NCBI GenBank assembly: GCA_017961325.1
Contig: JAGCXM010000005.1
Coordinates: 1 to 64,000, forward strand
DNA length: 64,000 nt
Direction: 5' to 3'
Origin: a bacterium
Lineage (GTDB): Bacteria > UBP6 > UBA1177
Each line of letters opens with the position of its first letter. Positions within the stretch are counted from its first letter, which is position 1. Shown piece by piece: positions 5,084-43,540 of the stretch. Made by a program: the position numbers and the translations under genes. The notes below the pieces were generated by a model, which made no database searches, was not told the origin of the DNA, and saw nothing but the letters and a program-made list of their open reading frames with translations.

Positions 5084-5984
5084 CATCGCTGCATCCGTCC
5101 TCGCAAGACTGAAAAGCAAAGCTGCTGAAACCGGCAAAAGTTATCAGCTCTGTCTTCAGCTTTTCTGTCAGGAAGAATTTCTGCGCCGCTTGGAAAAATC
5201 CCGATATTCCGAAAATTTTGTGTTGAAAGGGGGATTGTTTCTATATTCTCTGACCGGATTTGACAGCCGGGTGACTGTTGACGTCGATTTTCTGCTTCGA
5301 AAAATACCGAATACTACCGAGCAATTGAGAATTATCGTCGAAGAAATAATCAGAATTTCTACAGAAAATGAATTTATCACTTTTGAAATCAAAGATATCA
5401 ACCCTATAGCTCTGACAAAAAAATATGCAGGAATCGGAATATCGCTTATTGCAAAAATAAAAAATACGCGGACTCCTTTCGGGATTGACATCGGCATCGG
5501 AGACGTGATCGTACCGAAAGAACAGAAACTTAGAATACCTACGCAGCTTCCCGATTTCCATGCACCGACCATAAACAGCTATTCGATAGAGACAACTGTA
5601 GCTGAAAAGATAGACGCGATCCTTGATCTGATGGAATTTTCCAGCAGGATGAAAGATTATTACGATATTTACTACCTCGCTTCGAAATTTGATTTTGAAG
5701 GAAAAATCCTTGCCGAAGCTCTGCAAAGAACTTTTGCAAACAGAGGGCATGTTTTTAGAGCGAATCAGCTCAAAGAAATCTGTAATTTCTGCGATGATGC
5801 CGCAATGAATAAAAAGTGGGATGCTTTCCTAAGAAAATCGGCAATCGGAGCATTTGACTACGCAATAGTTTTATCAAAAATAAGTGATTTTTTGTCTGAA
5901 CCTTTCTTCTCCGCAATAAAACAGAAAGATTTCAATAAACATTGGTCTGCTGCAGAAGGTTTTTGGAAATACACACAAAAATAA
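5076..5984 (+). CDS. AbiEii-like nucleotidyltransferase toxin (first pair)
   Basis: A 302-residue member of the AbiEii/AbiGii nucleotidyltransferase family. The polymerase-beta-type core is visible as VLKGGLFLYSLTG (Gly52-Gly53) followed by SRVTVDVDF with Asp69 and Asp71 as likely metal ligands. Later come ETTVAEKIDAILDL and SSRMKDYYDIYYLA, the family's downstream Lys/Asp signature. Homologous toxins transfer nucleotides to RNA and are linked to phage abortive infection. The start overlaps the antitoxin end by 8 bp, so translation is likely coupled. All core motif residues are intact, so the protein appears functional. Confidence 0.85.
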   Translation: MADIAASVLARLKSKAAETGKSYQLCLQLFCQEEFLRRLEKSRYSENFVLKGGLFLYSLTGFDSRVTVDVDFLLRKIPNTTEQLRIIVEEIIRISTENEFITFEIKDINPIALTKKYAGIGISLIAKIKNTRTPFGIDIGIGDVIVPKEQKLRIPTQLPDFHAPTINSYSIETTVAEKIDAILDLMEFSSRMKDYYDIYYLASKFDFEGKILAEALQRTFANRGHVFRANQLKEICNFCDDAAMNKKWDAFLRKSAIGAFDYAIVLSKISDFLSEPFFSAIKQKDFNKHWSAAEGFWKYTQK

Positions 5985-7178: not shown

Positions 7179-8076
7179 TCACAAATTCTTCAAAATTTCT
7201 TCAATCCAGACTGAATCAAGCACCTCAAATGCAAAACATTTTTTGCCGAGATCTTTTAAGGATGCGCCGATATGATAAAGTGTTTTATCGTCAATTATCA
7301 AAAAGCGGTCGTGGACTTTCGATGTGTGTTTTGTTGTAAGTAATGGATATTGTTAGTTAAATTTCTGAACATCATCTTCGCTTAATTTTGCTTTGGGATC
7401 TGTATAAATCGTGACTTTCACGTCTTTTTGCTTTTTTGAAAGTCTTTCCAAAACCGATAAATCGACATAATTGTCAATGAGAATGATTCCATGCCCTGCA
7501 CTCTGAATAAATGACTCGAATTTTGCGTAGGCATCAAAAATCTGACCTTGGAAAAAGATTCCCTGTTTGTCTTCGATTTTGTACCTGTCCATTTTGTCGA
7601 AAAGTTCATCAATACGCTTGTCGGATTTGATCAGATGAACTTCGGTAATTACCTGTCTTTTTTCAACAAATTCCAACCGCTGAAAAAGAGCAGAGTTTTT
7701 CTGCAAAAAATGACGCATTGCAACAAAAGCGTTCATTATTCTGATGCTTACCTGAACGGCAGTTTTACTTTTGAACAGAAGCAAGCATAGCAACCCCCTG
7801 TTCGGTAAAAACATAAGGCAGATACTGACGACCTCCTCTGGTTTCTATTTTTGAGGTCGCAATTTGCGACCTCAAAAACTCAAATTCCTCATGGTTTAGT
7901 TGGAACATAAAATTGGCAGGGAATCTTTCTATATTTCTTCTCACTTGCTCATTTAATCTTTTTGTTCCCACGCCATAAAGTTCTGCCAAATCACAGTCGA
8001 GCATCACTTGTATTCCGCGAATTATCAGGATTTTATCTTCAATTTTTATTTCAGGTGACAAAATTTCATTGTCCAT
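7179..8076 (-). pseudogene. ORF6N-domain protein, broken by a frameshift and an in-frame stop
   Basis: The start ATG at 8076 has GGAG 6 nt upstream. The first frame encodes a typical ORF6N DNA-binding domain (RGIQVMLDCDLAELYGV, RRNIERFPANFMFQL, YLPYVFTEQGVAMLASV). Near 7773 the frame is lost: the DNA fits a deletion of 2 nt or gain of 1 nt. The next frame continues KSKTAVQVSIRIMNAFVAM...GIILIDNYVDLSVL. A TAA at 7353-7355 interrupts it, but the same frame resumes with SKVHDRFLIIDDKTLYHIGASLKDLGKK and ends at 7179-7181, as intact family members do. Two independent lesions indicate a true pseudogene. ORF6N genes are common in phage-derived and mobile DNA. Confidence 0.88.
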
Positions 8077-12264: not shown

Positions 12265-12303
12265 GGGGCGGTTTTTTGTTCAGTGAGATCTAATTTTATG
12301 AAT

Positions 12304-12316
12304 GGAGGATATTTTG
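12304..12316 (+). promoter_or_regulatory. Ribosome binding site selecting a TTG start for S20
   Basis: GGAGG (12304-12308) is followed by 5 nt and TTG (12314-12316). The upstream ATG at 12302 overlaps the Shine-Dalgarno itself, so it cannot use it. Starting at TTG gives MAHHKSAKKRIR, the normal S20 N-terminus. Confidence 0.85.
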
Positions 12317-12586
12317 GCTCACCACAAATCGGCAAAAAAAAGAATTAGAACAAGTGAAAAAAGAAGACTTTACAACCGCGCTGTAAAATCAAGAGTAAAA
12401 ACTTTCTCGCACTACTTCGAAGCTGCCGCTGACTCGGCTGAAAACCGCGAAGAAGCTGCTAAAAAACTTAATACCGCTATAAGCGAGATCCAGAAAGCTG
12501 CAAGCAAAGGCGTTCTTCACAAAAACACCGCTGCAAGAAAAGTTGCAAGACTTGCACGCAAATTCAACAGATCTTTCTCCGAATAA
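12314..12586 (+). CDS. rpsT: 30S ribosomal protein S20
   Basis: A 90-residue basic protein of the small ribosomal subunit. It begins MAHHKSAKKRIRTSEKRR, has the central KTAISEIQKAASKGVLHKNTA-type helix region (here LNTAISEIQKAASKG) and ends KFNRSFSE. It binds the 5' domain of 16S rRNA during assembly. The TTG start is chosen by the ribosome site at 12304. In E. coli rpsT also starts at UUG and is feedback-regulated at translation, so similar control is plausible here. hutI follows after only 3 bp, an unusual operon partner. Confidence 0.96.
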   Translation: MAHHKSAKKRIRTSEKRRLYNRAVKSRVKTFSHYFEAAADSAENREEAAKKLNTAISEIQKAASKGVLHKNTAARKVARLARKFNRSFSE

Positions 12587-12589
12587 GAT

Positions 12590-13825
12590 TTGAATTACTC
12601 TCTTATACTAGAAAACATTTCAGAAATTTTCACCGCAGAAAAATTGTCTCCCGTTTTGAAAGGCCCGCATCTTCTGATCGCGGCTGACGGAAACGGCAGA
12701 ATCTCTTTTGTAGGCAGAAGTGAAGATTTCAGAAAAACAGAGCCCGTTTTCGAGAGAAATTTCAAAGAAGTTGTCGTTGATGCAGGGAACAAAGCGGTTT
12801 TTCCCGGACTCGTAGACAGTCACACGCACCTTGTTTTTGCTGCGACCCGCGAAGACGAATTCGCGATGAAATCGAGAGGTGCGACTTACGAAGAGATCGC
12901 GGCAGCCGGCGGCGGTATCATAAACAGCACTGTCAAAACGAAGAAAGCGACTCTGGAAGAGATCGTCGAACAGGCTTCGAAACGCTTGTCCCAGCTCGTT
13001 TCCTACGGTGTTACGACTGTCGAAATCAAGTCGGGTTACGGACTTGACACTGAAAGCGAGCTCAAACTTCTGACGGCGATCGCCGAGCTTAAGAAACGTT
13101 TTCCGATCGAGATAGTTCCGACGTTTCTCGGCGCTCACGCATATCCGCCCGAATTCAAAAACGACCACGAAGGTTACATCAGCCTCATAAACAACGAGAT
13201 GCTGCCTGAAATAAAGGCGAGAAATCTTGCCGAATTCGCCGATGTCTTCTGCGAGGAAGGCTACTTCTCGCTCAAAGAGACCGAAAAACTCATGCTGAGA
13301 GCGAAAGAACTAGGTTTTGGACTCAAACTCCACGCTGACGAATTCCACTCTTTAGGCGGAACCGAGCTTGCTGCCGAAATGGGAGCGGCGTCGGTCGATC
13401 ATCTCGAGGCGATAAGCGACGAAGGGATCAGAAAACTTGCCGAAAACGGCGTTGTAGCAGGTGTTCTGCCGATAACTTCGGTCTTTTCGAGACTCCCGTT
13501 TGCTCCGGCCCGCAAAATGGCTGAAAACGGCGTAACGGTAGCTCTTGCGACCGACATGAACCCCGGAAGCTGCATGTGCGGATTCCTCCCGCTCGCTGCA
13601 AGTCTGGGAGCGACTCAGCTCAAACTCAGCGTTGAAGAATCGCTCAAAGGAATAACCATAAACGGTGCAAAATCGCTCAGAAGAGACAAAACCAAAGGCT
13701 CCATCGAAGCAGGCAAGGACGCAGATTTAGTCATCATGGACTCTCCGAGCGTCGCATATCCGATATACCACTTCGCACACAACCACTGCGAAAAGGTTTT
13801 CGTCAAAGGCAGAAGAATCGTCTGA
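12590..13825 (+). CDS. hutI: Imidazolonepropionase
   Basis: A 411-residue amidohydrolase that hydrolyses 4-imidazolone-5-propanoate to N-formimino-L-glutamate, the third step of histidine degradation. The metal ligands are visible in VDSHTHLVF, LHADEFHSLGG and the Asp of ALATDMNPGS. EIKSGYGLDTESELK and FLGAHAYPPEF are family signatures. The start appears to be TTG (12590), 3 bp after rpsT, with only a weak ribosome site, so translation may be coupled to S20. The last ~320 bp of this gene recur as a diverged fragment at 17616-17936, and a third relic lies near 19700. Confidence 0.95.
   Translation: MNYSLILENISEIFTAEKLSPVLKGPHLLIAADGNGRISFVGRSEDFRKTEPVFERNFKEVVVDAGNKAVFPGLVDSHTHLVFAATREDEFAMKSRGATYEEIAAAGGGIINSTVKTKKATLEEIVEQASKRLSQLVSYGVTTVEIKSGYGLDTESELKLLTAIAELKKRFPIEIVPTFLGAHAYPPEFKNDHEGYISLINNEMLPEIKARNLAEFADVFCEEGYFSLKETEKLMLRAKELGFGLKLHADEFHSLGGTELAAEMGAASVDHLEAISDEGIRKLAENGVVAGVLPITSVFSRLPFAPARKMAENGVTVALATDMNPGSCMCGFLPLAASLGATQLKLSVEESLKGITINGAKSLRRDKTKGSIEAGKDADLVIMDSPSVAYPIYHFAHNHCEKVFVKGRRIV
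13504..13825 (+). repeat. Direct repeat, left copy: 3' end of intact hutI
   Basis: This segment of hutI matches 17616-17936. Similarity begins exactly at TCCGG (13504-13508) and runs to the stop codon. The two copies bracket the AbiE/GmrSD island. Another TCCGG lies 5 bp after the hutI stop (13831-13835). Confidence 0.9.
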
Positions 13826-13874
13826 TAAAATCCGGAATGAACGAGCTTGACATGTTTTTTTTTGAGTATAAGAT

Positions 13875-13912
13875 TTGATCTGTTGTATGTTGAAATGTAA
13901 AATTAACATACA
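13875..13912 (+). promoter_or_regulatory. Promoter with overlapping inverted-repeat operator, second AbiE pair
   Basis: The -35 TTGATC (13875-13880), a 17-bp spacer and the -10 TAAAAT (13898-13903) form a good promoter. A perfect 8-bp inverted repeat, TGTATGTT (13884-13891) and AACATACA (13905-13912), places one half-site inside the spacer and the other at about the transcription start. A repressor bound here would block RNA polymerase. AbiEi-family antitoxins autorepress through inverted repeats, so the product of the next gene is the likely ligand. Confidence 0.65.
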
Positions 13913-13934
13913 TTTAGTCTAAAACGGAGCGCAA

Positions 13935-14477
13935 ATGATATACACATACAGCGACTGTATTAAAATTTACAAATCGGATTATCAGATAAAAAAAGCTGTC
14001 AGCAGCGGACGGATTTTTCAGATAGAAAAGGGGATTTACGCTGACAAACCAGATGTTTCCGTATTGGCGGTGATAGCGGCGAAGTATCCTGATGTGATAA
14101 TTACGATGGATACGGCGTTTTTCTATCACGGACTGACAGATGTCGTCCCCGATGAATACTGCATTGCGACACCGGAGTCATCAAGAGCCTTGCGTGACAA
14201 ACGTATCCGGCAGTTTTTTGTCAATACCGACATTCTGAATTTAGGGGTGATGACGGCCAATCGCGGCGATGCTGTTTTCAAAATGTATGACCGCGAGCGT
14301 ATGCTAATCGAACTTTTGAGATTCAAAAACAAGCTTCCCTATGATTATTACAAGGAAATTCTCGGAAATTACAGGCGTATTATCTATGAAATGGATATTG
14401 AGCGCGTTCAGGAATATGCATCGTTTTTCCCGAGGCACAAGATGATCAGCGAAGCATTGGACTCGGAGGTCTTTTGA
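13935..14477 (+). CDS. AbiEi-like antitoxin/transcriptional regulator (second pair)
   Basis: A 180-residue protein with an N-terminal helix-turn-helix-like region (YTYSDCIKIYKSDYQIKKAVSSGRIFQIEKGIYAD). The AbiEi-type core follows: ITMDTAFFYHGLTDVVPDEYCIATP and KMYDRERMLIELLRFKNKL. By analogy it neutralises the next gene's product and represses the operon through the inverted repeat at 13884-13912. GGAG lies 6 nt before the ATG. It has only distant resemblance to the first pair's antitoxin at 4478, so the two systems are not a recent duplication. Confidence 0.8.
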   Translation: MIYTYSDCIKIYKSDYQIKKAVSSGRIFQIEKGIYADKPDVSVLAVIAAKYPDVIITMDTAFFYHGLTDVVPDEYCIATPESSRALRDKRIRQFFVNTDILNLGVMTANRGDAVFKMYDRERMLIELLRFKNKLPYDYYKEILGNYRRIIYEMDIERVQEYASFFPRHKMISEALDSEVF

Positions 14478-15313
14478 TGGCGGTTATTGATGAAATGCTG
14501 CACGCAGCCAACGAAGAGGGCTTTTTCAATGAAAGTGCTGAATCCAAGGTTTGTCAGGATATAGTTTTAAAAGCACTTGCAGAAAGTTCCTTCAACCGAA
14601 ATGTCACTATAAAAGGCGGCGTTGTTATGAGAAGTATCACTAAAAGTGCGCGGAGAGCCACCCAGGACATGGATATCGACTTTATCCGTTACTCTCTGAA
14701 TGACGATTCAATCCGGCTATTTATAGATAAACTCAACTGCTTGCCCGATATTCGCATCGAACAGAGTGGAGAAATAGAAGAATTGAGGCAGGAGGATTAT
14801 TTCGGAAAACGTGTTCACATAATAATATCAGATAGCAACGGAAAGGCTATTGAAAGCAAGGTCGATATCGGTGTGCATAAGCACATGGATATTGCACAGG
14901 AGGAGTTTTGTTTTGACATCGCCTGTTTTGAAGATGGAGCGAACCTTTTGATTAACTCCAGGGAGCAGATGTTTGTGGAAAAACTGCGTTCGTTGTTAAA
15001 GTTCGGTGCAAATTCTACACGCTTTAAAGATATTTTTGATTTATGCTATTTATCGGATTCAGTTGATAGAAAAAGACTTGAAACCTGTTTGGAGGCATTT
15101 GTGTTCCTGAATCCTGGAATGAGGGAAAATTCAACGCAGGATGTTGTTCGCAGAGTTGAAAACACCTTTTTAAATCCAAAGTATGTCGCCAGACTTTCAA
15201 CTTCGAGGAAGAATTGGCTCGATATGCCGGTAGAGGAAGTGCTTTTAAAACTGAAAAAGTTTTTGAGGTCGTTGAGCGGGTCGGCGGAAAACGTTTCGGT
15301 CATTGGGAAATAA
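14477..15313 (+). CDS. AbiEii-like nucleotidyltransferase toxin (second pair)
   Basis: A 278-residue nucleotidyltransferase of the AbiEii family. The core is TIKGGVVMRSI (Gly47-Gly48) and RRATQDMDIDF with Asp64 and Asp66 as likely metal ligands. FVEKLRSLLKFG and TRFKDIFDLCYL give the downstream Lys and Asp signature. The antitoxin stop TGA overlaps this ATG by one base (TGATG), with GGAGG 7 nt upstream; a TTG one codon earlier is also possible. Coupled translation is expected. The protein appears intact. Confidence 0.82.
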   Translation: MAVIDEMLHAANEEGFFNESAESKVCQDIVLKALAESSFNRNVTIKGGVVMRSITKSARRATQDMDIDFIRYSLNDDSIRLFIDKLNCLPDIRIEQSGEIEELRQEDYFGKRVHIIISDSNGKAIESKVDIGVHKHMDIAQEEFCFDIACFEDGANLLINSREQMFVEKLRSLLKFGANSTRFKDIFDLCYLSDSVDRKRLETCLEAFVFLNPGMRENSTQDVVRRVENTFLNPKYVARLSTSRKNWLDMPVEEVLLKLKKFLRSLSGSAENVSVIGK

Positions 15314-15322
15314 AGGAGCAAT

Positions 15323-15361
15323 ATGTCGTCAAATAATGAAATTGATTTTTTTGGTATATAA
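15323..15361 (+). CDS. 12-codon mini-ORF with strong ribosome site
   Basis: GGAG followed by CAAT and an ATG opens a 12-codon frame (MSSNNEIDFFGI) between the AbiEii-like toxin and the GmrSD gene. It may be the start of a gene whose remainder was lost, or a leader peptide. Expression is not assured. Confidence 0.25.
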   Translation: MSSNNEIDFFGI

Positions 15362-15416
15362 GGTGTCGGGTTGTTGTTTCTAAGAGGGGTCTTTTTTTGA
15401 TTGGAGGAAATACACT

Positions 15417-17510
15417 ATGGCAAATGAATTGCAGTCGCTATCGCAGCTTTTTAATCAAAGATTGTTCAGAATACCAGACTATCAGCGAGGCTATGCATGG
15501 TTGCAGCAACAGCTGGTCGATTTTTGGGATGATCTTGTCAATCTTCAGGACGACCGCTACCACTATACAGGTCTCCTGTCGCTTAAGCCGCTGAAAAGCG
15601 ATGAGCTTGCTAGCTGGGGCGAAGATCTCTGGCTGGTAAAGAATGGTTATAAGCCGTGCCATATAGTTGATGGGCAACAACGCATTACTACATTTCTTAT
15701 CCTTTTGAATGAAATCGTAGGTTTTGTGCGCGGTCTGGATAAAAATAGAGCTAATTCGGACAAGGAAATCATTCTCGGCTATGAAACGGTTGAGGAAATT
15801 GTCTCGAAATATATCTGTCGTAAGAGATCTCAGAATAGTGTGGTCACGACGTATTTTTTTGGATATGAGGTAGATAATCCCAGTGCGGAATACATGAAAT
15901 ATAAGGTTTTTGGAGAGCCTTATTCTGGTACGATAAGCGAGAGTTATTATACAAAGAATCTTGAATTCGCTAAAGAATTCTTTGCCAGGAACATTAGAAG
16001 ACTGTATGATGAGTTCAGAGAAGGTGGTCTGGAGGCGGTAACTGCTCTATACAAGAAACTCACCCAGAACCTAATGTTCAATCTTCATGAGATTAGCGAT
16101 GATTACAATGTGTTGGTGGCATTTGAAACCATGAATAACCGTGGTAAGAAGCTGACGAATCTCGAGTTATTAAAGAACAGGTTAATCTATCTGACCACAT
16201 TGTATGATAGTGATGTTTTTGACGAGATTGAGAAATCTTCTCTTCGCAAGAAAATAAACGATGCTTGGAAAGAAGTTTATTATCGGCTCGGAAGGAATAA
16301 GACTATTCCGCTTTCTGATGATGATTTCCTGCGTGCACATTGGATTATATATTTCAGCTATTCCCGTAAACGTGGTGATGACTACATCAATTTTTTGCTG
16401 AACAAGTTCTCGCCCAAATGCATATTTGAAAAGAGACCGGTTTTGGTCGAGTCCGAAGTCGAACCAGCAATTATAGATGACATTGCTGATGCCGAGGATT
16501 CCGAGGTCGCTGAAATGGAGGAGATGGAGACCATGGAAGTTTCCAAACTTCAACCACAGGACATTGAGAATTATATCAACAGTCTCAAAGATATGGCTAA
16601 ATATTGGTATGACACATTTTTTCCGTCTGAAAGCGCAAATCTAACGACAGATGAGAAAAAATACGTTGATAGTCTTAACCGTATCGGAATTGGTTACTTT
16701 AGACCGCTTGTTGCTGTAGTCATCAGTCGGCAGGATATTCTACCGGAAAGTAGAGTGAAAATCTTTAAAGCTATCGAGCGTTTCATCTTTATTTCATTCC
16801 GTTTGGGCAACTTCAACGCCTCTTATAAAAGCAGCGATTTTTACCGAACTACTCGGCTGTTTTATTCAAAAGAAAAAGATATAGATGAACTCTGCAATGA
16901 AATTGATAACGGAATCATGAAATACCTTGAGGAGGCCAAGAACAACTTTGTTATCAGAATCGGAAAATGTTTTTCCGTAGGCAAAGGGAGCGGCTATTAC
17001 AACTGGAGTAGTCTAAGATACTTCTTCTATGAGTATGAGACATGGTTGGCGGAGAAACATAATATTGATCGCTTCTGCAGATGGTCAATGTTCACAAAAT
17101 CCGAGAAAGATAAGGTTTCTATAGAGCATATTCTTCCGCAGACTTTGACAGATTATTGGCGTAATATGTTTCGGCAATTTAGTGATTCTGAAATCAAGAT
17201 GCTTTCTGGAGCCATTGGAAACCTTCTGCCATTGTCTAAGAGCATAAACTCTGCGTTGCAGAATGATAGTTTTGAGGACAAAAAACATTCTAAGACCTCA
17301 GGCCGACGTGGTTATGAAAATGGTTCTCATTCAGAGATAGAGGTATCCAAGCTGCAGGATTGGACTGCATCGGAGATATACAATCGAAGTGAAAGCCTCC
17401 TAAAGTTCATGCAGAAGCGTTGGAATTTTGAGTTTACTGAAGAACAAATGACAAAGTTAATTGGTCTCTCTTTCGTCAAAAACAACTCTGCAATTTCTGA
17501 AAACAAATAG
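15417..17510 (+). CDS. GmrSD-type restriction protein (DUF262 + DUF1524 HNH)
   Basis: A 697-residue protein of the family that includes the type IV modification-dependent restriction enzyme GmrSD. The N-terminal DUF262 domain has FRIPDYQRGYAW and the nucleotide-binding HIVDGQQRITT (Asp85-Arg89), then TMNNRGKKLTNLELLKNRL. The C-terminal DUF1524 nuclease domain has SIEHILPQTL (His571) and GAIGNLLPLSKSIN (Asn602), an His-Asn-His arrangement. A central acidic insertion (about residues 350-385) precedes helical filler. Known members cleave DNA with modified cytosines, such as glucosylated phage DNA. GGAGG lies 9 nt before the ATG. With the AbiE-like pair it makes a compact anti-phage island. Confidence 0.88.
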   Translation: MANELQSLSQLFNQRLFRIPDYQRGYAWLQQQLVDFWDDLVNLQDDRYHYTGLLSLKPLKSDELASWGEDLWLVKNGYKPCHIVDGQQRITTFLILLNEIVGFVRGLDKNRANSDKEIILGYETVEEIVSKYICRKRSQNSVVTTYFFGYEVDNPSAEYMKYKVFGEPYSGTISESYYTKNLEFAKEFFARNIRRLYDEFREGGLEAVTALYKKLTQNLMFNLHEISDDYNVLVAFETMNNRGKKLTNLELLKNRLIYLTTLYDSDVFDEIEKSSLRKKINDAWKEVYYRLGRNKTIPLSDDDFLRAHWIIYFSYSRKRGDDYINFLLNKFSPKCIFEKRPVLVESEVEPAIIDDIADAEDSEVAEMEEMETMEVSKLQPQDIENYINSLKDMAKYWYDTFFPSESANLTTDEKKYVDSLNRIGIGYFRPLVAVVISRQDILPESRVKIFKAIERFIFISFRLGNFNASYKSSDFYRTTRLFYSKEKDIDELCNEIDNGIMKYLEEAKNNFVIRIGKCFSVGKGSGYYNWSSLRYFFYEYETWLAEKHNIDRFCRWSMFTKSEKDKVSIEHILPQTLTDYWRNMFRQFSDSEIKMLSGAIGNLLPLSKSINSALQNDSFEDKKHSKTSGRRGYENGSHSEIEVSKLQDWTASEIYNRSESLLKFMQKRWNFEFTEEQMTKLIGLSFVKNNSAISENK

Positions 17511-17615
17511 GCTGATAAAACAAGATTTTTTCCTCACTTGCTTGCCTGTAGAAAGAACAGCTATATACGGCATCTATTTCAACATATCGCTCTAAATTGA
17601 AATAAAACTCTAAAT

Positions 17616-17936
17616 TCCGGCGCGCAAAATGGCTGAAAACGGCGTAACGGTAGCTCTTGCGACCGACATGAACCCCGGAAGCTGCATGTGCGATTTTTGC
17701 CGCTAGCGGCAAGTCTGGGTGCTACTCAGCTCAAACTCAGCGTTGAAGAATCGCTCAAAGGGATCACCATAAACGGTGCGAGATCGCTCAGAAGAGACAA
17801 AACCAAAGGTTCCATCGAAGCAGGCAAGGACGCAGATCTCGTCATCATGGATTCGCCGAGCGTCGCATATCCGATATACCACTTCGCACACAACCACTGC
17901 GAAAAGGTTTTCGTCAAAGGAAAACGGATCCTCTGA
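17616..17936 (+). pseudogene. Truncated, frameshifted 3' copy of hutI (right direct repeat)
   Basis: This matches hutI codons from the ARKMAENG region to the stop. The first ~75 bp differ at one position; then around 17692-17710 the copy has a patch of changes with a net 1-nt loss, which breaks the frame (TAG at 17704-17706). The remaining ~230 bp differ at about 16 positions, almost all synonymous, with only K-to-R, R-to-K and V-to-L replacements near the end. It therefore derives from a hutI that evolved under selection, such as an older paralogue or a related strain's allele. The 9-bp sequence CTCTAAATT occurs twice just before the junction (17590-17598 and 17608-17616). Confidence 0.92.
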
Positions 17937-17994: not shown

Positions 17995-18027
17995 TACAAG
18001 CTTTTTTGATTTTTTGGAGGTGACATG

Positions 18028-19635
18028 ATGAAAAAACTTTGCTTAATCTGCATTATCTTTTCCATTTTTGTTTTTACAGGATGCGGTTCGGAAAAAAGGG
18101 CTGAAGATGAAAAACCTGACACTGCCGATTCATCATCAGACAAACCAGACACAGATTCGAGTGATTCAGGGTCCACAGGCAAACCAGATACCGGAGATAC
18201 TTCCGATACTACCGACCCCGCTGATACAACTGACACTGCTCCGGGCAGCAATGCTTTTGATTTCAACAAGTCGTGCGAAGCTTCAGGCGGAACACCGACG
18301 GACGGCGTCTGTGTATGCAGCAAAACGATATGCGATGTCGGCGTTGTCTGCAACTTTGAAACAAAACAGTGCGCAAACGCAGGCGAAGCAGGCAGTGACT
18401 GCACGGTTGACACTCCTTCGACATGCACAAACTCAGGAATAGGAATCGGCATCGTCAAAGAGTGCCAGAACGGTCACAAAGTCAATGTCAGCTGTCAGAC
18501 GGTCTCATGCAGCGAAGCCGGCGACTCATGCGGCGAATGTCTGAATTCTCAGGGAACGACCTGCTCGAACAACCCGTCTTTCATCGGAGAAACAACTGAA
18601 TGCAAAAACGGCAAAATAGTCAAAAAATCGTGTTCCGCATCGTGCAATCAGGGTGAATGCGGAAAATGCAAAAACTACGAGCAGTTCTGCGAGAACAAGC
18701 TCAGCGATAAAGGCGAAGAGATAGGCAGGATCCTTGAATGTCAGGAAGGAAAATCCGGCAAGCAGATTGCCGACTGCGTCAATGTTTCCTGCAGAACCGA
18801 CCTTCCTGCATGCGGAGAATGTGTAAACGGCACAACCAAATGTTCCGAGGACAACAACAATAACGCAATCATGTGGCGCTGCGTCGACGGCAAGTGGAAA
18901 CGCTTAGTGAATAAATACGATCCGCTCGACATAGAAAACTTCAAGTGTCCCGCAGAATGCCGCATAGATGCACTTCCTGAACATAAAGACATAGGATGCA
19001 GAGAAAAAATCAGACTAGATCCTGATTTATGCCTGAGCTGTGATCCGTGCGTGGGAGTAGGCGATGATGATGATATTGAACATCCTGAGACTTGGAGTGA
19101 TTACAATCCGTGCCACAGCAACGAGAGATGCGCACAGATTCTTGCTGAAGAAGACCCCGATTATCCGCCTTTCCGCGATTACGATACTTCTCTCAAGCTG
19201 ATAGAACGCAACGCTTATACCAAAGCTGCAAATACCATGAAAGAAGTTTTCGGCTACAACTTCAATAATCATGAGTCAGTTTCAGACCCTTCGGATAGAG
19301 AGGAAAATTTCAAACTTGATCTTACAAACGGAAGGGCACATGTTTCGTGCAATGCTGACAAAACTTATTACGGTGTCTGCCACAATTCGCTTCAGATCTG
19401 CATCAATGAACATTATCATACAATGGGCTACATTGTTCAGTGTGCAAACGGTGCACTGACCGACTACGACGGCAACGGCGACGGCATCGCATGTCACTGT
19501 GAAAATCTCGGCAACTCAAATGCATACGGCTGCTGCTATACACGGAGCAACTGTTTCAAAAACACTTCGATTTTCACTGGTGAAGAATTGTGCAAAAAAC
19601 CGAAAAAAGAGGATGATGGCAATTACGGTGATTGA
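18028..19635 (+). CDS. Cys-rich surface lipoprotein
   Basis: A 535-residue lipoprotein with lipobox FTGC at about residue 20. A linker of Asp/Ser/Thr/Pro repeats (KPDT, DTTDPADTTDT) runs to about residue 75. The rest is a long region with dozens of cysteines in loosely repeated modules of the type ECxNGxxxxxSC...CGEC. This suggests a disulfide-stapled extracellular domain. The C-terminal segment contains TDYDGNGDGIACHCENLG, an excalibur-like DxDGDGxAC motif. The family is not recognised. Two ATGs lie 3 nt apart (18025 and 18028); the second has the better spacing to GGAGG. It sits between two hutI remnants. Confidence 0.85.
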   Translation: MKKLCLICIIFSIFVFTGCGSEKRAEDEKPDTADSSSDKPDTDSSDSGSTGKPDTGDTSDTTDPADTTDTAPGSNAFDFNKSCEASGGTPTDGVCVCSKTICDVGVVCNFETKQCANAGEAGSDCTVDTPSTCTNSGIGIGIVKECQNGHKVNVSCQTVSCSEAGDSCGECLNSQGTTCSNNPSFIGETTECKNGKIVKKSCSASCNQGECGKCKNYEQFCENKLSDKGEEIGRILECQEGKSGKQIADCVNVSCRTDLPACGECVNGTTKCSEDNNNNAIMWRCVDGKWKRLVNKYDPLDIENFKCPAECRIDALPEHKDIGCREKIRLDPDLCLSCDPCVGVGDDDDIEHPETWSDYNPCHSNERCAQILAEEDPDYPPFRDYDTSLKLIERNAYTKAANTMKEVFGYNFNNHESVSDPSDREENFKLDLTNGRAHVSCNADKTYYGVCHNSLQICINEHYHTMGYIVQCANGALTDYDGNGDGIACHCENLGNSNAYGCCYTRSNCFKNTSIFTGEELCKKPKKEDDGNYGD

Positions 19636-19691: not shown

Positions 19692-19785
19692 TACGGCGGA
19701 AAACGATCTTAAAGCCGCATCTGTCGATCACCTCGGGGCGATAGGCGATTTCGGCATAAAAAACTTGCCGAAAACGGATCGTCTG
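19692..19785 (+). pseudogene. Internal-deletion relic of hutI
   Basis: From about 19714 to 19776 the sequence aligns with hutI 13388-13450 (ASVDHLEAISDEG...LAENG). It then jumps directly to a hutI-like end, ATCGTCTGA. The junction falls on AAAACGG, which occurs at both deletion ends in intact hutI sequences (GCCGAAAACGG inside the gene, GGAAAACGGATC at the end of the 17.9-kb copy). That indicates a deletion at short homology. Upstream similarity (GGCGGAA...CGA.CTT) extends back to about 19692. It no longer codes for anything. Confidence 0.7.
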
Positions 19786-19799
19786 AGGATTATCTCATC

Positions 19800-38471: not shown

Positions 38472-40130
38472 ATGAAAATTGTTCGTTTTTTGGTCGTTTC
38501 AGTTATTTTGGCGGCTTGTTTTCTTTTATCTTCCTGCAGCGGCTGCAGTAAGGAAAAATTCTCCTGCTTGAATTGCCCGATCGGTACGACATGCGATATT
38601 GAAAAGAAAATGTGTATCGAAGAGATATCCAATAATGAAAACGGAGATGACTCTACTGAAAGTTGGACGGATGGCGACTGTAATCCAGGCGAAATACAGG
38701 TTTGTGACTATAACGGTCCGGACGGAACGGAAGGCGTCGGTCCGTGCAGAGCGCCGATAAGAATCTGCAAGGAAGACGGAACCTGGGGAATATGCGAAGA
38801 CGGATACGAACCTGTTCATGAAAGGGGCGAAGAACTCTGCGCCAACGGAATCGACGACGACTGCAACGGAGTCGTTGATGACGGTGTTGATATTGACGGC
38901 GACGGCTACGGTGAATGTGCCGACTGCTGTGAATCAGAGTTCGTCTGTAAAGGTTTCGATCCTTCGATGATACATCCCGGAGCTTACGAAATGATCGGTG
39001 ATGAAATTGACAACAACTGCGACGGACAGATCGATGAACCTACTTCGTGCGACGCTGAGGAAGAACCGCTTGCAGTCGGTGATTATAAAGGAAATGCGGT
39101 AAAACTTGCCCGCGCGATTGGAATCTGCGGAGACCAGCTTGTTTCGGCAGAGATTTCGCTTGCTGGAAAACCGGTAGTGGAACACATCGCCGATGATTTT
39201 TGCGTATCCGAGATAATAAACAATCCCGACATATTGGAATCGAGAAAAATGGATGAACTGGAGAAACATAAATTCGACAGAATGAGCCGGGGTATGCCGT
39301 ATTACAACGATGAATACCAGACTTTTGCAGCTGAGCCGGGATTCGGCACAAAAATTGTTCCGCTTGAAGGTTCAAAGATAGCAATCCTTTCGACAGGTCA
39401 CTGGAAAAATCCGACAAAAGATGTCGATTGCGCGACACTTGAACAGGGTGATATGAAAACCGCGAGTACGGTTCCCGAAGACTGGATAAATATGATGCCT
39501 GACTGTACGATTCCGAAATCGCCTTCGTGCGGCGGAACGGTTGTTGAAGACGGTCTCAAGAATCAGTGTGACGGAAAGGATATCCCGTCGGTTCAGGATC
39601 CTGTCATGCTCACGCTTAAAGTAAAAGTTCCGGAAAATGCGCGTGCTTTTGAGTTCAACCTATTCTTCTTTTCGAAAGAATACCCGGGAACGGTTTGCGA
39701 CGATAGAAAGTTCAACGACTTTTTTGTTGCACTGCTTGATTCGGAATACAATGAAAATCCTGATGACGAATTCAGGAATCCTTACGACAAAAACCTCGCA
39801 AAAGACGAAAAAGGCAATTTCGTAGGTGTCGATCTTGCTCCGGACGGGCTTTTTCAGGTGTGTGACCCGGACGACGAAAAATCGGAATATGCATCCAGCT
39901 GCGTACAGGGCAAGGAGCTTCTTCTTGGAACACATTTCAAAGGCGGTACCGGCTGGCTCACGACCCGCGGAAATGTAATTGAGGGTGAAATTATCACTTT
40001 GAGATTCGCAATCTGGGAATACGGAACGGTCACTTACGGTCCGGACCATTCATTCGATTCTACGGTTCTTCTTGACGGCTTCAGGTGGCTGCCCAAACCT
40101 GCAAAAGCAGGAACATCCGGCCGGCAGTAG
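38472..40130 (+). CDS. Lipoprotein with MopE-type motif and choice-of-anchor-L-like domain (paralogue 1)
   Basis: A 552-residue lipoprotein (lipobox LSSC near residue 19). In order it has CLNCPIGTTCDIEKKMC, a YNGPDGTEGVGPC...CKEDGTWGICEDGYEPV module, and the MopE metal-binding motif CANGIDDDCNGVVDDGVDIDGDG with a second half GDEIDNNCDGQIDE. The C-terminal ~200 residues resemble choice-of-anchor-L domains: FEFNLFFFSKEYPGTVC, FNDFFVALLDS, GNFVGVDLAPDGLF, GGTGWLTTRGNV, LRFAIWE and DSTVLLDGFRW. These are calcium-binding, disulfide-rich surface modules; the function is unknown. The ATG at 38472 has AGGGGG upstream. Confidence 0.85.
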   Translation: MKIVRFLVVSVILAACFLLSSCSGCSKEKFSCLNCPIGTTCDIEKKMCIEEISNNENGDDSTESWTDGDCNPGEIQVCDYNGPDGTEGVGPCRAPIRICKEDGTWGICEDGYEPVHERGEELCANGIDDDCNGVVDDGVDIDGDGYGECADCCESEFVCKGFDPSMIHPGAYEMIGDEIDNNCDGQIDEPTSCDAEEEPLAVGDYKGNAVKLARAIGICGDQLVSAEISLAGKPVVEHIADDFCVSEIINNPDILESRKMDELEKHKFDRMSRGMPYYNDEYQTFAAEPGFGTKIVPLEGSKIAILSTGHWKNPTKDVDCATLEQGDMKTASTVPEDWINMMPDCTIPKSPSCGGTVVEDGLKNQCDGKDIPSVQDPVMLTLKVKVPENARAFEFNLFFFSKEYPGTVCDDRKFNDFFVALLDSEYNENPDDEFRNPYDKNLAKDEKGNFVGVDLAPDGLFQVCDPDDEKSEYASSCVQGKELLLGTHFKGGTGWLTTRGNVIEGEIITLRFAIWEYGTVTYGPDHSFDSTVLLDGFRWLPKPAKAGTSGRQ

Positions 40131-40179
40131 TCAGAATGACATTCGATGATTAGTAAGATATTTTGTTTCGGAGGCTAAG

Positions 40180-41922
40180 ATGAAGTATTGGCATTTATTT
40201 CTTGTTTTGTTTGTCTGTGCCTTTTGTTTTGTTTCGTGCGGCGGCGAAGAATCTTCTGCTCCAGCAGCAGGAAAAGTTTGTTCGTCAAACAATGATTGCC
40301 CGATAGGTTACTCTTGCGACACTCAGACAGGAAACTGCTATCAGGGCAGCAGCAATCAGAGTGATTCCGGAGATTCAGGAAACGGAGGCAGCTCTGACTC
40401 AGGCTCCGGTGACAATTCCGATTCAGGCTCCGGTGACAATTCCGATTCAGGTGACGGCGGTGATTCAGGCAGGCAGGACGGTGACGAAGATCCGATAACC
40501 GGAAAATGCGAACCCGGCAAAAAGCAGACCTGCGGCTATGAAGGCCCTGACGGAACAGAAAATGTCGGCCCGTGCAAGGCAGCTGTAAGAACCTGCAAAG
40601 AAGACGGAACATGGGGAAAATGCGAAGACGGATACGAGCCTGTTACCGAAATAGGCGAACTCTGCGGCAACGGAATCGATGATGACTGCAACGGCGTTGT
40701 CGACGACGGAACCGATATTGACGGCGACGGTCACGGTGCATGCACAGACTGCTGCGAATCGGCTTCAAATTGCAACGGTTACGATCCTGCAACGATACAT
40801 CCCGGTGCTTATGAAATGATGGGTGATGAAATTGACAACAACTGCAACGGCGAAGTAGATGAAGCCACTTCATGCGACGGCGAAGATTCGCCCCTTGTAC
40901 TTGATGATTACGCAGGCAACGCGGTAAAACTCGCCCACGCAATGGGAATCTGCGGCGACCAGCTTGTTTCTGCCGAAATTTCGCTCGCGGGACCCGCCGC
41001 AACTGAACAAATTGCGGATGAACAATGCGTAAGCATAGGAACCGGAAACAGAGGTCCACGACAAAGTCTTCCCTTGCCGTATTACACCAGCGAATATCAG
41101 ACTTTTGCAGCAGAACCGAAATTCGGGAACAATGTTCTTCCGAAAGAAGGTTCGAAAATGGCGATTCTCTCAACCGGGGCTTGGAATCATCCGACACAGA
41201 ATGCAACTTGCGCAAAACTTGATTACGGTGACATGAAAACGGCAAGCAAAATTCCCGAAGACTGGATAAACATGATGAAAGACTGCGTAGTTCCGAAATC
41301 ACCGACATGCAATGACAATAAACCTATCGAAACAGGTCTTTCCAATCAGTGTGTAGGAAAAGAGATTCCCACGGTTCAAGATCCGATCATGCTCACACTC
41401 AAAGTGAAAGCGCCGATGAACGCAAGAGCATTTGAGTTCAATCTTTTCTTTTTTTCGGCTGAATATCCGAACATGGTGTGCAATGACCTTAATTATAATG
41501 ATTTCTTCATTGCGTTACTTGATTCAGAAAATAATGAGAAATATCCTAATGACGAGCAGAATCCCTATGACAAAAATCTGGCAATAAATGAAAACGGTAA
41601 CTTTGTCGGAGTTGATCTTGCTCCTGACGGGCTTTTTACGGTTTGCGGCACAAACGGAAGCTATTCTTCATTCTGTAAAGACGGAACAACACTGCTTGCC
41701 GGAACTGGTTTCGACAATCTTCCACGTTATAACGGGGGCGGAACGAACTGGCTCACGACACGCGGAAACGTCGTTCCAGGCGAAATCATAACGTTGAGAC
41801 TTGCGCTTTGGGAACAGGGAGAAGTTAATTACGGTTCGGATCATTCTTATGATTCTACGGTTCTTCTCGACGGCTTCAGATGGCTTCCGAATCCTGCAAA
41901 AGCGGGAACAGGTCAGCAGTAA
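40180..41922 (+). CDS. Lipoprotein with MopE-type motif and choice-of-anchor-L-like domain (paralogue 2)
   Basis: A 580-residue close paralogue of the preceding gene (lipobox FVSC near residue 20). It has a longer Ser/Asp/Gly linker that includes a 24-nt tandem DNA repeat. CSSNNDCPIGYSCDTQTGNC, the GYEGPDGTENVGPC...CKEDGTWGKCEDGYEPV module, CGNGIDDDCNGVVDDGTDIDGDG and GDEIDNNCNGEVDE follow. The C-terminal domain repeats FEFNLFFFSAEYPNMVC, YNDFFIALLDS, VGVDLAPDGLF, NWLTTRGNV and DSTVLLDGFRW. The middle part (ADEIS...YYTSEYQTFAAEP) also matches paralogue 1. GGAGG lies 5 nt before the ATG. Confidence 0.85.
   Translation: MKYWHLFLVLFVCAFCFVSCGGEESSAPAAGKVCSSNNDCPIGYSCDTQTGNCYQGSSNQSDSGDSGNGGSSDSGSGDNSDSGSGDNSDSGDGGDSGRQDGDEDPITGKCEPGKKQTCGYEGPDGTENVGPCKAAVRTCKEDGTWGKCEDGYEPVTEIGELCGNGIDDDCNGVVDDGTDIDGDGHGACTDCCESASNCNGYDPATIHPGAYEMMGDEIDNNCNGEVDEATSCDGEDSPLVLDDYAGNAVKLAHAMGICGDQLVSAEISLAGPAATEQIADEQCVSIGTGNRGPRQSLPLPYYTSEYQTFAAEPKFGNNVLPKEGSKMAILSTGAWNHPTQNATCAKLDYGDMKTASKIPEDWINMMKDCVVPKSPTCNDNKPIETGLSNQCVGKEIPTVQDPIMLTLKVKAPMNARAFEFNLFFFSAEYPNMVCNDLNYNDFFIALLDSENNEKYPNDEQNPYDKNLAINENGNFVGVDLAPDGLFTVCGTNGSYSSFCKDGTTLLAGTGFDNLPRYNGGGTNWLTTRGNVVPGEIITLRLALWEQGEVNYGSDHSYDSTVLLDGFRWLPNPAKAGTGQQ
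40399..40446 (+). repeat. 24-nt tandem repeat in the lipoprotein linker
   Basis: Two exact 24-nt units (40399-40422 and 40423-40446) encode the repeated linker SGSGDNSD. A shorter third match follows. Unit gain or loss would change linker length without a frameshift. Confidence 0.85.
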
Positions 41923-41938
41923 TAAAAAAGCAACCCTC

Positions 41939-41966
41939 TTGATTCTCTGACAAAAATTCATAAAAT
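41939..41966 (+). promoter_or_regulatory. Promoter of the third MopE/anchor-L lipoprotein
   Basis: TTGATT (41939-41944), 16 bp, TAAAAT (41961-41966), with a leader of about 25 nt. Confidence 0.6.
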
Positions 41967-41998
41967 ATACTGTTTTTATTCGTTATTTGGAGGCTGAT

Positions 41999-43540
41999 AT
42001 GAAATCTGTGCGTTTACTCCTTATTCTGTCGCTTTGTGCGTTTTCTTTCGTTTCGTGCATGGAAGATGACGACGAATTTGAATCGTCTGCACCGCAGCGA
42101 TGTGAATCAAATTACGACTGCCGGCTCGGTTGGGTATGCGACACAACACAAAAAATCTGCGTTAACGATACAGACAATTCTGAAGAAGGCGGCAATTCTG
42201 ATGAAAGTGATTCCGGAGATAAGGGAAATTCCGGCGAAAACGGCGGAGAAGACGGCGGTGAAAGTGGGGGCGACGGCGGAAATTCAGGTCAGCAGACCGG
42301 TGACGGTGATCCGATAACCGGAAACTGCGAACCGGGTAAAACGCAGACCTGCGGCTATGAAGGCCCGGACGGAACTGAAGGCATCGGTCCGTGCAAGGCG
42401 GCTGTAAGAACCTGTCAGGATGACGGAACTTGGGGAAAATGCGAAGGCGGATACGAGCCCGTTTCAGAAATAGGAGAACTCTGCGGCAACGGAATCGATG
42501 ATGACTGTAACGGTATAATTGATGATGGCACGGATTTTGACGGTGACGGTCACGGTGCATGTACCGACTGCTGTGAGACGACGAAACAATGCCCAGATCC
42601 GAAGTCGGCATATGATAACAGTATTCCTGACCATCTCTGCGAATACGGAGAAGAAATGGTATACGGTTGTGATACCAATATCAATGTTTCATCAAATGAA
42701 CCGATTGATTATGCAAAAGCAATCGGTATCTGTAAGACGACGACCGAAGATTCTGATGAATGGGGACTTATCAGGGCGACAATATCTGCTCCGAACGGCA
42801 GTGCAACAGTTCATGCCGGCAGCAACGGTCTGCTTGCCAAACTTGGTAATGTCATAAAACCTAAAGCCGGCAGTCTTATGCTCGGACTTAGTTCAGGGAC
42901 GGTTTCAGATCCTTTCGTCTCAAATTATTCGGGTGCGACAAGCGGTGCCCCGTCTGACTGGCTGGCAGCAAACGGCGGTCAATTCCCTTCGGCAGCTTCG
43001 TGTTCTTCATCCGGCAGAACAGGATCAGTAAATGATGCCGTAATGCTCGAAATGAGGATAAGGGTTCCGAAAACGGCGAAATCGTTCAGTTTCAACATCT
43101 ATTTTTTGACCATAGAATATCCAAGTTGGATATGCTCAAAGTATAATGATTTCTTTATTGCACTGCTTGATTCAGGCTACACAAGCAGCGACCCGACTTT
43201 GCAGAATCCTGCCGACAAAAATTTGGCAATGGATGAAAAAGGAAATCCTGTCGGAGTAAACCTCGCTGCCGGCGGTCTTTTTACGCAATGCTCTTCGGTT
43301 TACGCGTATCCCGCTACACAGGAATCGTGTGTCGGAACGGAAGAACTGAAGGGAACAGGATTTGACTCAAACGGCGGAACCGGCTGGCTCACGACGCGCG
43401 GAAACGTTGTCGGAGGCGAAATCATTACTCTGAGACTTGCTATCTGGGATCTCGGAGATCATGCTCTGGATTCACTTGTCTTGATAGATAATTTCAAATG
43501 GGATGTCGTAGAATACACACCCGGAACCGGACAATACTAA
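41999..43540 (+). CDS. Lipoprotein with MopE-type motif and choice-of-anchor-L-like domain (paralogue 3)
   Basis: A 513-residue lipoprotein (lipobox FVSC near residue 18). The N-terminal modules are close to paralogue 2: CESNYDCRLGWVCDTTQKIC, a Gly/Asp/Ser linker, the GYEGPDGTEGIGPC module and CGNGIDDDCNGIIDDGTDFDGDG. After the CTDCCE segment the central part differs: the second MopE half-motif is missing and is replaced by CEYGEEMVYGCDTNINVSSNEPIDYAKAIG-type sequence. The C-terminal domain is again anchor-L-like (FSFNIYFLTIEYPSWIC, YNDFFIALLDS, GGTGWLTTRGNV, LRLAIWDLGDHALDSLVLIDNFKW). Hence a mosaic paralogue. The ATG at 41999 has GGAGG 5 nt upstream. Confidence 0.85.
   Translation: MKSVRLLLILSLCAFSFVSCMEDDDEFESSAPQRCESNYDCRLGWVCDTTQKICVNDTDNSEEGGNSDESDSGDKGNSGENGGEDGGESGGDGGNSGQQTGDGDPITGNCEPGKTQTCGYEGPDGTEGIGPCKAAVRTCQDDGTWGKCEGGYEPVSEIGELCGNGIDDDCNGIIDDGTDFDGDGHGACTDCCETTKQCPDPKSAYDNSIPDHLCEYGEEMVYGCDTNINVSSNEPIDYAKAIGICKTTTEDSDEWGLIRATISAPNGSATVHAGSNGLLAKLGNVIKPKAGSLMLGLSSGTVSDPFVSNYSGATSGAPSDWLAANGGQFPSAASCSSSGRTGSVNDAVMLEMRIRVPKTAKSFSFNIYFLTIEYPSWICSKYNDFFIALLDSGYTSSDPTLQNPADKNLAMDEKGNPVGVNLAAGGLFTQCSSVYAYPATQESCVGTEELKGTGFDSNGGTGWLTTRGNVVGGEIITLRLAIWDLGDHALDSLVLIDNFKWDVVEYTPGTGQY

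Follow-up and report, generated by a model that had tools for sequence, protein, structure and literature searches.

Genes can enter a chromosome beside a conserved gene with no integrase involved. At hotspots without mobile elements, variable genes lie next to a core gene and are proposed to be exchanged by double homologous recombination that uses the genes on either side and leaves no remnant (PMC5635113). In homology-facilitated illegitimate recombination (HFIR), reported in S. pneumoniae, A. baylyi and P. stutzeri, incoming DNA is joined homologously on one side and illegitimately, at short microhomology, on the other (PMC3240628). In the displacement of Vibrio cholerae type VI secretion system (T6SS) effector modules (PMC5361080), and in orphan Rhs tips, an incoming module recombines via a conserved upstream stretch and the old 3' part is shifted downstream; successive events build up an array in which the oldest part is the most distant. 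By what route defence genes pass between species when neither integrase nor transposase is present is an open question, and the double flanking recombination that has been proposed leaves no trace. Here we describe a defence island, an AbiE pair with a GmrSD-type gene, inserted between two copies of the 3' end of the imidazolonepropionase gene hutI in a 64,000-nucleotide stretch (the window) of contig C32 from a 2.35-Mb bacterial draft genome (G000).

The locus shares features with each of these systems and departs from each. As in HFIR, one side appears homologous and the other illegitimate, with short microhomology and no integrase; in laboratory HFIR the recipient usually loses about as much DNA as is inserted (PMC3240628), whereas here the old hutI end is kept and the anchor gene is intact, and the hutI case is known from species comparison, not experiment. 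As in V. cholerae (PMC5361080) and orphan Rhs tips, an old 3' end has been pushed downstream, but what is displaced in those systems is part of the effector locus itself and may stay useful (immunity genes), while hutI is an unrelated housekeeping anchor and its remnant is dead. Like the hotspots of PMC5635113, the locus would involve core-gene recombination, but with one side illegitimate and a readable scar. The mechanism would be known in kind; what is new is that a housekeeping gene carries a defence module along, and that four junctions can be compared.

A defence island between two hutI ends

The principal features of the locus are as follows.

12590–13825, + strand: hutI, imidazolonepropionase, intact, TTG start, with a mosaic 3' part (TIGR01224; mosaic among congeners)
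13808–13835, + strand: island-borne hutI tail GGCAGAAGAATCGTCTGATAAAATCCGG, among 15 congeneric genomes present in four occupied loci only
13935–14477, + strand: abiEi-like antitoxin/regulator gene, 180 aa (PADLOC AbiEi, 1.4e-75)
14474–15313, + strand: abiEii-like nucleotidyltransferase toxin gene, 279 aa (PF08843, 1.3e-17; PADLOC AbiEii, 2e-119)
15417–17510, + strand: gene for a fused GmrSD-type protein (DUF262 + DUF1524), 697 aa (PF03235, 8e-29; PF07510, 7e-17)
17616–17936, + strand: displaced hutI 3' end (hutI 915–1236), frameshifted, with a native-type (non-island) tail (sequence match)

In a profile search, hutI scored 422 bits against TIGR01224 (cut-off 298); its upstream neighbour is the S20 ribosomal protein gene (12302–12586). 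A preliminary description of this DNA had proposed an intact hutI ending at 13825, an AbiE/GmrSD block of about 3.79 kb and a 321-bp match to the last 322 bp of hutI, and all of this holds: the block spans 13826–17615 (3790 bp) with the domain hits listed above, and 17616–17936 matches the final 322 bp of hutI at 92.9% identity (E ~1e-134). The two copies differ at 1 site within their first 76 bp, by 16 substitutions at hutI 996–1155 and at 5 sites within the last 16 bp, with 16 of the 22 changes at third codon positions, and one base, at hutI 991, is missing from the right copy, which is frameshifted as a result. The earlier count had been about 16 differences, nearly all synonymous, outside the first ~75 bp, and the frameshift had not been noted. 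The near-identity reported for the first ~75 bp is real, but it is weakly significant (1 difference seen versus ~3.9 expected, P ~0.10), the region being conserved across the genus. At the right junction, CTCTAAATT is doubled, as had been stated. The motif TCCGG is indeed present at 13504, 13831 and 17616; as a mark of the island ends it fails, as G004, G010 and G014 all lack it at their right junctions, and it is probably there by chance.

The island recurs at the same locus in related species

To place the locus in its genus, we compared 15 congeneric genomes, of which 13 are close congeners (G000 included); all are drafts, probably all metagenome bins, with one per species. The arrangement of hutI, AbiE pair and hutI 3' fragment is present in four of the 13 (G000, G004, G010 and G014; rumen species). 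The fragments are ~111–321 bp long, and both their starts and the ends of the cargo vary:

G000: fragment from hutI base 915; cargo ends after the GmrSD-type gene
G004: fragment from base 1039; cargo ends in mid-abiEii
G010: fragment from base 1019; cargo ends at the end of abiEii
G014: fragment from base 1123; cargo ends after a different AbiE pair

Among these four loci the process is thus recurrent and its cargo variable, with another AbiE pair in G014 and a GmrSD-type gene in G000 only. Empty sites in G001, G007, G009 and G012 carry a single hutI, no island and no fragment, and ~75 bp downstream lies a gene (fam1) that reads from its sequence as acyl-CoA dehydratase activase-like. Neither arrangement that the preliminary description had held incompatible with its scheme was seen: no island-free relative carries the fragment, and in the three further species (G004, G010 and G014) it is confined to loci with an AbiE island.

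A distinctive hutI tail, CAGAAGAATCGTC-NGA-TAAAATCCGG, is present at all four occupied loci and, with three mismatches allowed, nowhere else in the 15 genomes. By contrast, the right-hand fragments end with native-type tails, like the hutI genes of the empty sites, and in G004 and G014 they continue directly into native intergenic DNA and the fam1 promoter region, then fam1. Because the one tail is restricted to occupied loci and the right-hand tails are native-type, the left tail is taken to be island-borne and the right end to be the old one. This supports the earlier proposal that the island brought a related hutI allele and recombined in hutI, leaving an intact chimera and a displaced 3' remnant.

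The slot behind hutI is a hotspot. In G002 and G013 it holds AAA_14/DUF4143 ATPases and in G008 a lipoprotein; in G006 the locus is interrupted by a contig end. In G003 (L027), the space between hutI and fam1 includes an AbiL-like pair (AAA ATPase + RloB), a YhcG-type nuclease and an AAA-domain protein of 1101 aa whose family is unknown.

Allele differences and transfer between species

AbiE DNA of G000, G004 and G010 is 99.3–99.6% identical up to the point at which the G004 copy breaks off, and beyond it G000 and G010 share 97.2%, whereas hutI identity among the same three species is ~84–86%. The module therefore moved between species, and the same contrast rules out vertical inheritance from a common ancestor. 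At each occupied locus the left and right hutI ends are 8–14% apart, mainly at third codon positions. By their sequences the two copies are alleles of the kind that different species carry, which rules out a tandem duplication of hutI; their divergence predates the insertion, because the AbiE DNA has hardly changed.

Among the congeners hutI is mosaic in general. In G004, hutI changes from G013-like to G007-like between bases 1026 and 1044 (triplet breakpoint test, P <0.0005), and the start of the displaced fragment (1039) falls within this interval. That is the position expected of a donor tract starting where the recipient end was displaced. The near-identical first 76 bp of the G000 copies are weakly compatible with a crossover near 990.

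Among 28 genomes of the phylum, close AbiEii relatives are confined to G000, G004 and G010, and a close full-length match to the GmrSD-type protein is found in G000 only. AbiEii relatives in other phyla are mostly from Lachnospiraceae and reach 61–62% identity at best, so no recent donor was found. Searches of viral contigs gave no match to the hutI tail pattern, to hutI itself or to AbiEii; one viral contig matched the GmrSD-type protein (77% protein identity). Against plasmids and phages, the island had distant GmrSD relatives only (65–75% DNA identity), for example in Streptococcus suis phage records. Those records (H21–H26) match the GmrSD-type gene at 65.6% over 2 kb; most of their names end in rum, and one is annotated RloF.

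Junctions and a model of one-sided capture

With the intact AbiE genes of G000 as reference, abiEii of G010 stops ~nine codons before its end, with a 5-bp overlap (GAGCG) at the junction, and abiEii of G004 stops after ~136 codons, with an overlap of ≤1 bp. In G004 (L024, reverse strand) the N-terminal half of abiEii is in frame with the last ~64 hutI codons, giving a 200-aa fusion that has no second half of the toxin. The right fragment of G010, together with ~40 bp behind it, is of the G007/G012 type, and its DNA upstream of fam1 is of the G014 type; the G010 unit was thus probably formed in another species and then transferred whole via recombination in hutI. Two further blocks link G000 and G014:

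17507–17550, + strand: 44-bp block common to the G014 island (41/44), where it lies directly 3' of the hutI tail (alignment)
17575–17599, + strand: 25-bp block TATTTCAACATATCGCTCTAAATTG at the right end, also present at the right end in G014 (P 0.0015 by shuffling, local alignment)

These blocks suggest either one larger donor island as ancestor or a unit whose ends are defined. The ORFs of the four islands include no integrase or transposase, in line with the earlier statement that the G000 block has no integrase, and the window has no tRNA gene. A recurring att site was not found: the right fragments begin at four different hutI positions and TCCGG is not conserved.

On balance, the island is probably a defence module captured in the manner of HFIR, one side by homologous recombination within hutI and the opposite side by an illegitimate join, in a process that was repeated and whose products were transferred again among species. 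Linear donor DNA from a related species, entering by transformation, conjugation or transduction, would carry a hutI end followed by an AbiE-based defence island. The donor hutI end would pair with recipient hutI and cross over there, and the far end, lacking homology, would be joined illegitimately to recipient hutI further on, with little or no microhomology. The product would be an intact chimeric hutI (5' part from the recipient, 3' part from the donor), the cargo, and a dead remnant, the recipient's former hutI 3' end, of variable length as the join point would not be fixed. A resident island could later spread through ordinary recombination in hutI, which would explain why only the hutI tail and the cargo remain identical between species. 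Long duplications would presumably be lost by recombination, and joins past hutI would fall in the promoter or coding sequence of the gene that follows; short hutI remnants are therefore the survivors to be expected.

This model draws support from the varied fragment starts and cargo cut points, the fragment-free empty sites, the tail confined to occupied loci and the native-type tails on the right, the near-identity of the AbiE DNA beside diverged hutI genes, the allele difference, the G004 switch, the microhomology and the lack of an integrase. Set against HFIR, the left junction lies within hutI, in DNA homologous to donor and recipient (G004 switch, 1026–1044), and the other junction shows microhomology in the range of 0–10 bp (GAGCG in G010, ≤1 bp in G004), a comparison that covers G004 and G010 only. 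Loss of recipient DNA was not seen, hutI being kept from the join onward and G004 having lost little or nothing; because recipient hutI was displaced and retained, the locus would work like HFIR and is no textbook case of it. A ComEC domain is encoded in 14 of the 15 genomes and a DprA-like protein, below the family cut-off, in all 15, which is compatible with natural transformation and no proof of it. Ku is absent from the 15 genomes, which rules out Ku-dependent end joining.

Several points weigh against the model. ComEC and DprA are present in most bacteria, so that competence is not proven; the donor locus was not found; and every genome is a draft or a metagenome bin. The 25-bp right-end block shared by G000 and G014 is not what random illegitimate joins would produce, and the right fragment of G010 comes from another clade, so that at least this unit was made elsewhere and moved whole. 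HFIR in the laboratory is reported to be rare (PMC3240628), yet the pattern is present in 4 of 13 species.

A Campbell-type single crossover of a circle carrying part of hutI and the module, giving hutI–module–hutI, would likewise yield an intact left chimera and a partial right copy, and later deletions into the right copy would account for the truncated abiEii of G004 and the variable fragment starts. It is nonetheless unlikely: each lineage would need one extra deletion ending inside hutI, and both the near-identical 76 bp of G000 (a weak point) and the G004 switch beside the fragment start are simpler under one-sided recombination. Quite unlikely, too, is that hutI serves as the docking site of an integrase-less unit with defined ends (a hutI tail that travels with it at the left end and CTCTAAATTG at the right), which swaps its defence cargo and rebuilds the entered gene by an unrecognised enzyme or activity. 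G000 and G014, whose cargo genes differ, do have in common a left end, the internal block of 44 bp and the right-end block of 25 bp, but such blocks are also expected from one larger donor island by deletion, G004 and G010 have no such right end and stop inside abiEii, and no candidate enzyme is encoded.

We are very doubtful that the island is an element of the integrase type, with a replacement hutI tail, whose att site lies in the final ~30 bp of hutI and whose integrase has been lost or acts in trans. Integration into gene 3' ends with the end restored is common, all four islands have the same hutI tail and left end, and a core could be provided by the ~30 conserved bp that precede the tail; however, an attR derived from that core would leave ~30–50 bp of hutI, as against the ~111–321 bp and four different starts observed, and no integrase lies near any locus examined. 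Partial 3' copies beside islands need not be att sites. Finally, an assembly chimera of co-occurring species at a conserved hutI stretch, an idea invited by the draft and binned genomes and by the foreign-clade fragment of G010, is highly improbable, as four separate assemblies place all junctions inside contigs of 52–119 kb, the right junctions of G004 and G010 share ≤5 bp (too little for an assembler to join) and the in-frame AbiEii–HutI fusion of G004 is one continuous ORF.

An older hutI remnant in G000

If the one-sided capture favoured here is correct, the displaced gene end is a scar from which the number, order and source of captures could be inferred. In G000, the displaced end is followed by a lipoprotein gene and then smpB, and a second hutI remnant lies between these two genes:

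18025–19635, + strand: lipoprotein gene, 536 aa, with a homologue directly 3' of hutI in G008
19713–19788, + strand: older hutI remnant, in which hutI 795–860 meets a native-type hutI tail at the 8-bp repeat GAAAACGG (E 2e-9, 80% over 66 bp)

The join falls exactly at GAAAACGG, and a deletion between two copies of this repeat is visible in the remnant sequence. In 13 other congeners the piece is absent from the DNA in front of smpB. It reads as a hutI end that was displaced earlier and has since lost part of its length by repeat-mediated deletion, and the resulting stack in G000 of new end, young remnant and old remnant resembles the effector-displacement arrays of V. cholerae (PMC5361080). 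With four comparable junctions in one genus and this older remnant in the stack, the process is open to direct testing.

Cargo genes

The island shares with the AbiE type IV toxin–antitoxin system (PMC3985639) a two-gene operon with PADLOC AbiEi and AbiEii hits, in which an AbiEi-like regulator adjoins a DUF1814 nucleotidyltransferase. The AbiEii-like translation contains nucleotidyltransferase motifs I and II (KGG-x15-DMD), fitting the GG-x15-DxD pattern and the family form hG[G/S]-x15-DhD. Its best solved relative is AbiGII (9hlo), and the nearest sequences to the pair outside the genus are Lachnospiraceae pairs (61–62%), features that set it apart from the type IV AbiE system described. As in that system, an inverted repeat precedes the operon:

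13884–13912, + strand: inverted repeat TGTATGTT-N13-AACATACA, 5' of abiEi (sequence)

AbiEi proteins of this family are known to regulate their own expression (PMC3985639, PMC7319586), and this repeat, at the expected place, is a possible AbiEi operator. The GmrSD-type protein combines an N-terminal DUF262 with a C-terminal DUF1524, both above cut-off, as in GmrSD-type modification-dependent nucleases. Judged by family (PMC3985639), the cargo, both AbiE pair and GmrSD-type protein, probably has an anti-phage role. A second gene of the AbiEii family lies at 5100–5894 of the window (PF08843, 4e-44) and is ~25% identical to the island AbiEii.

Elsewhere in the window, positions 7848–7878 form a 31-bp near-perfect palindrome (97% self-complementary), and 38685–42576 holds two diverged direct repeats of ~2 kb with 70% identity, with more partial copies at ~43370.

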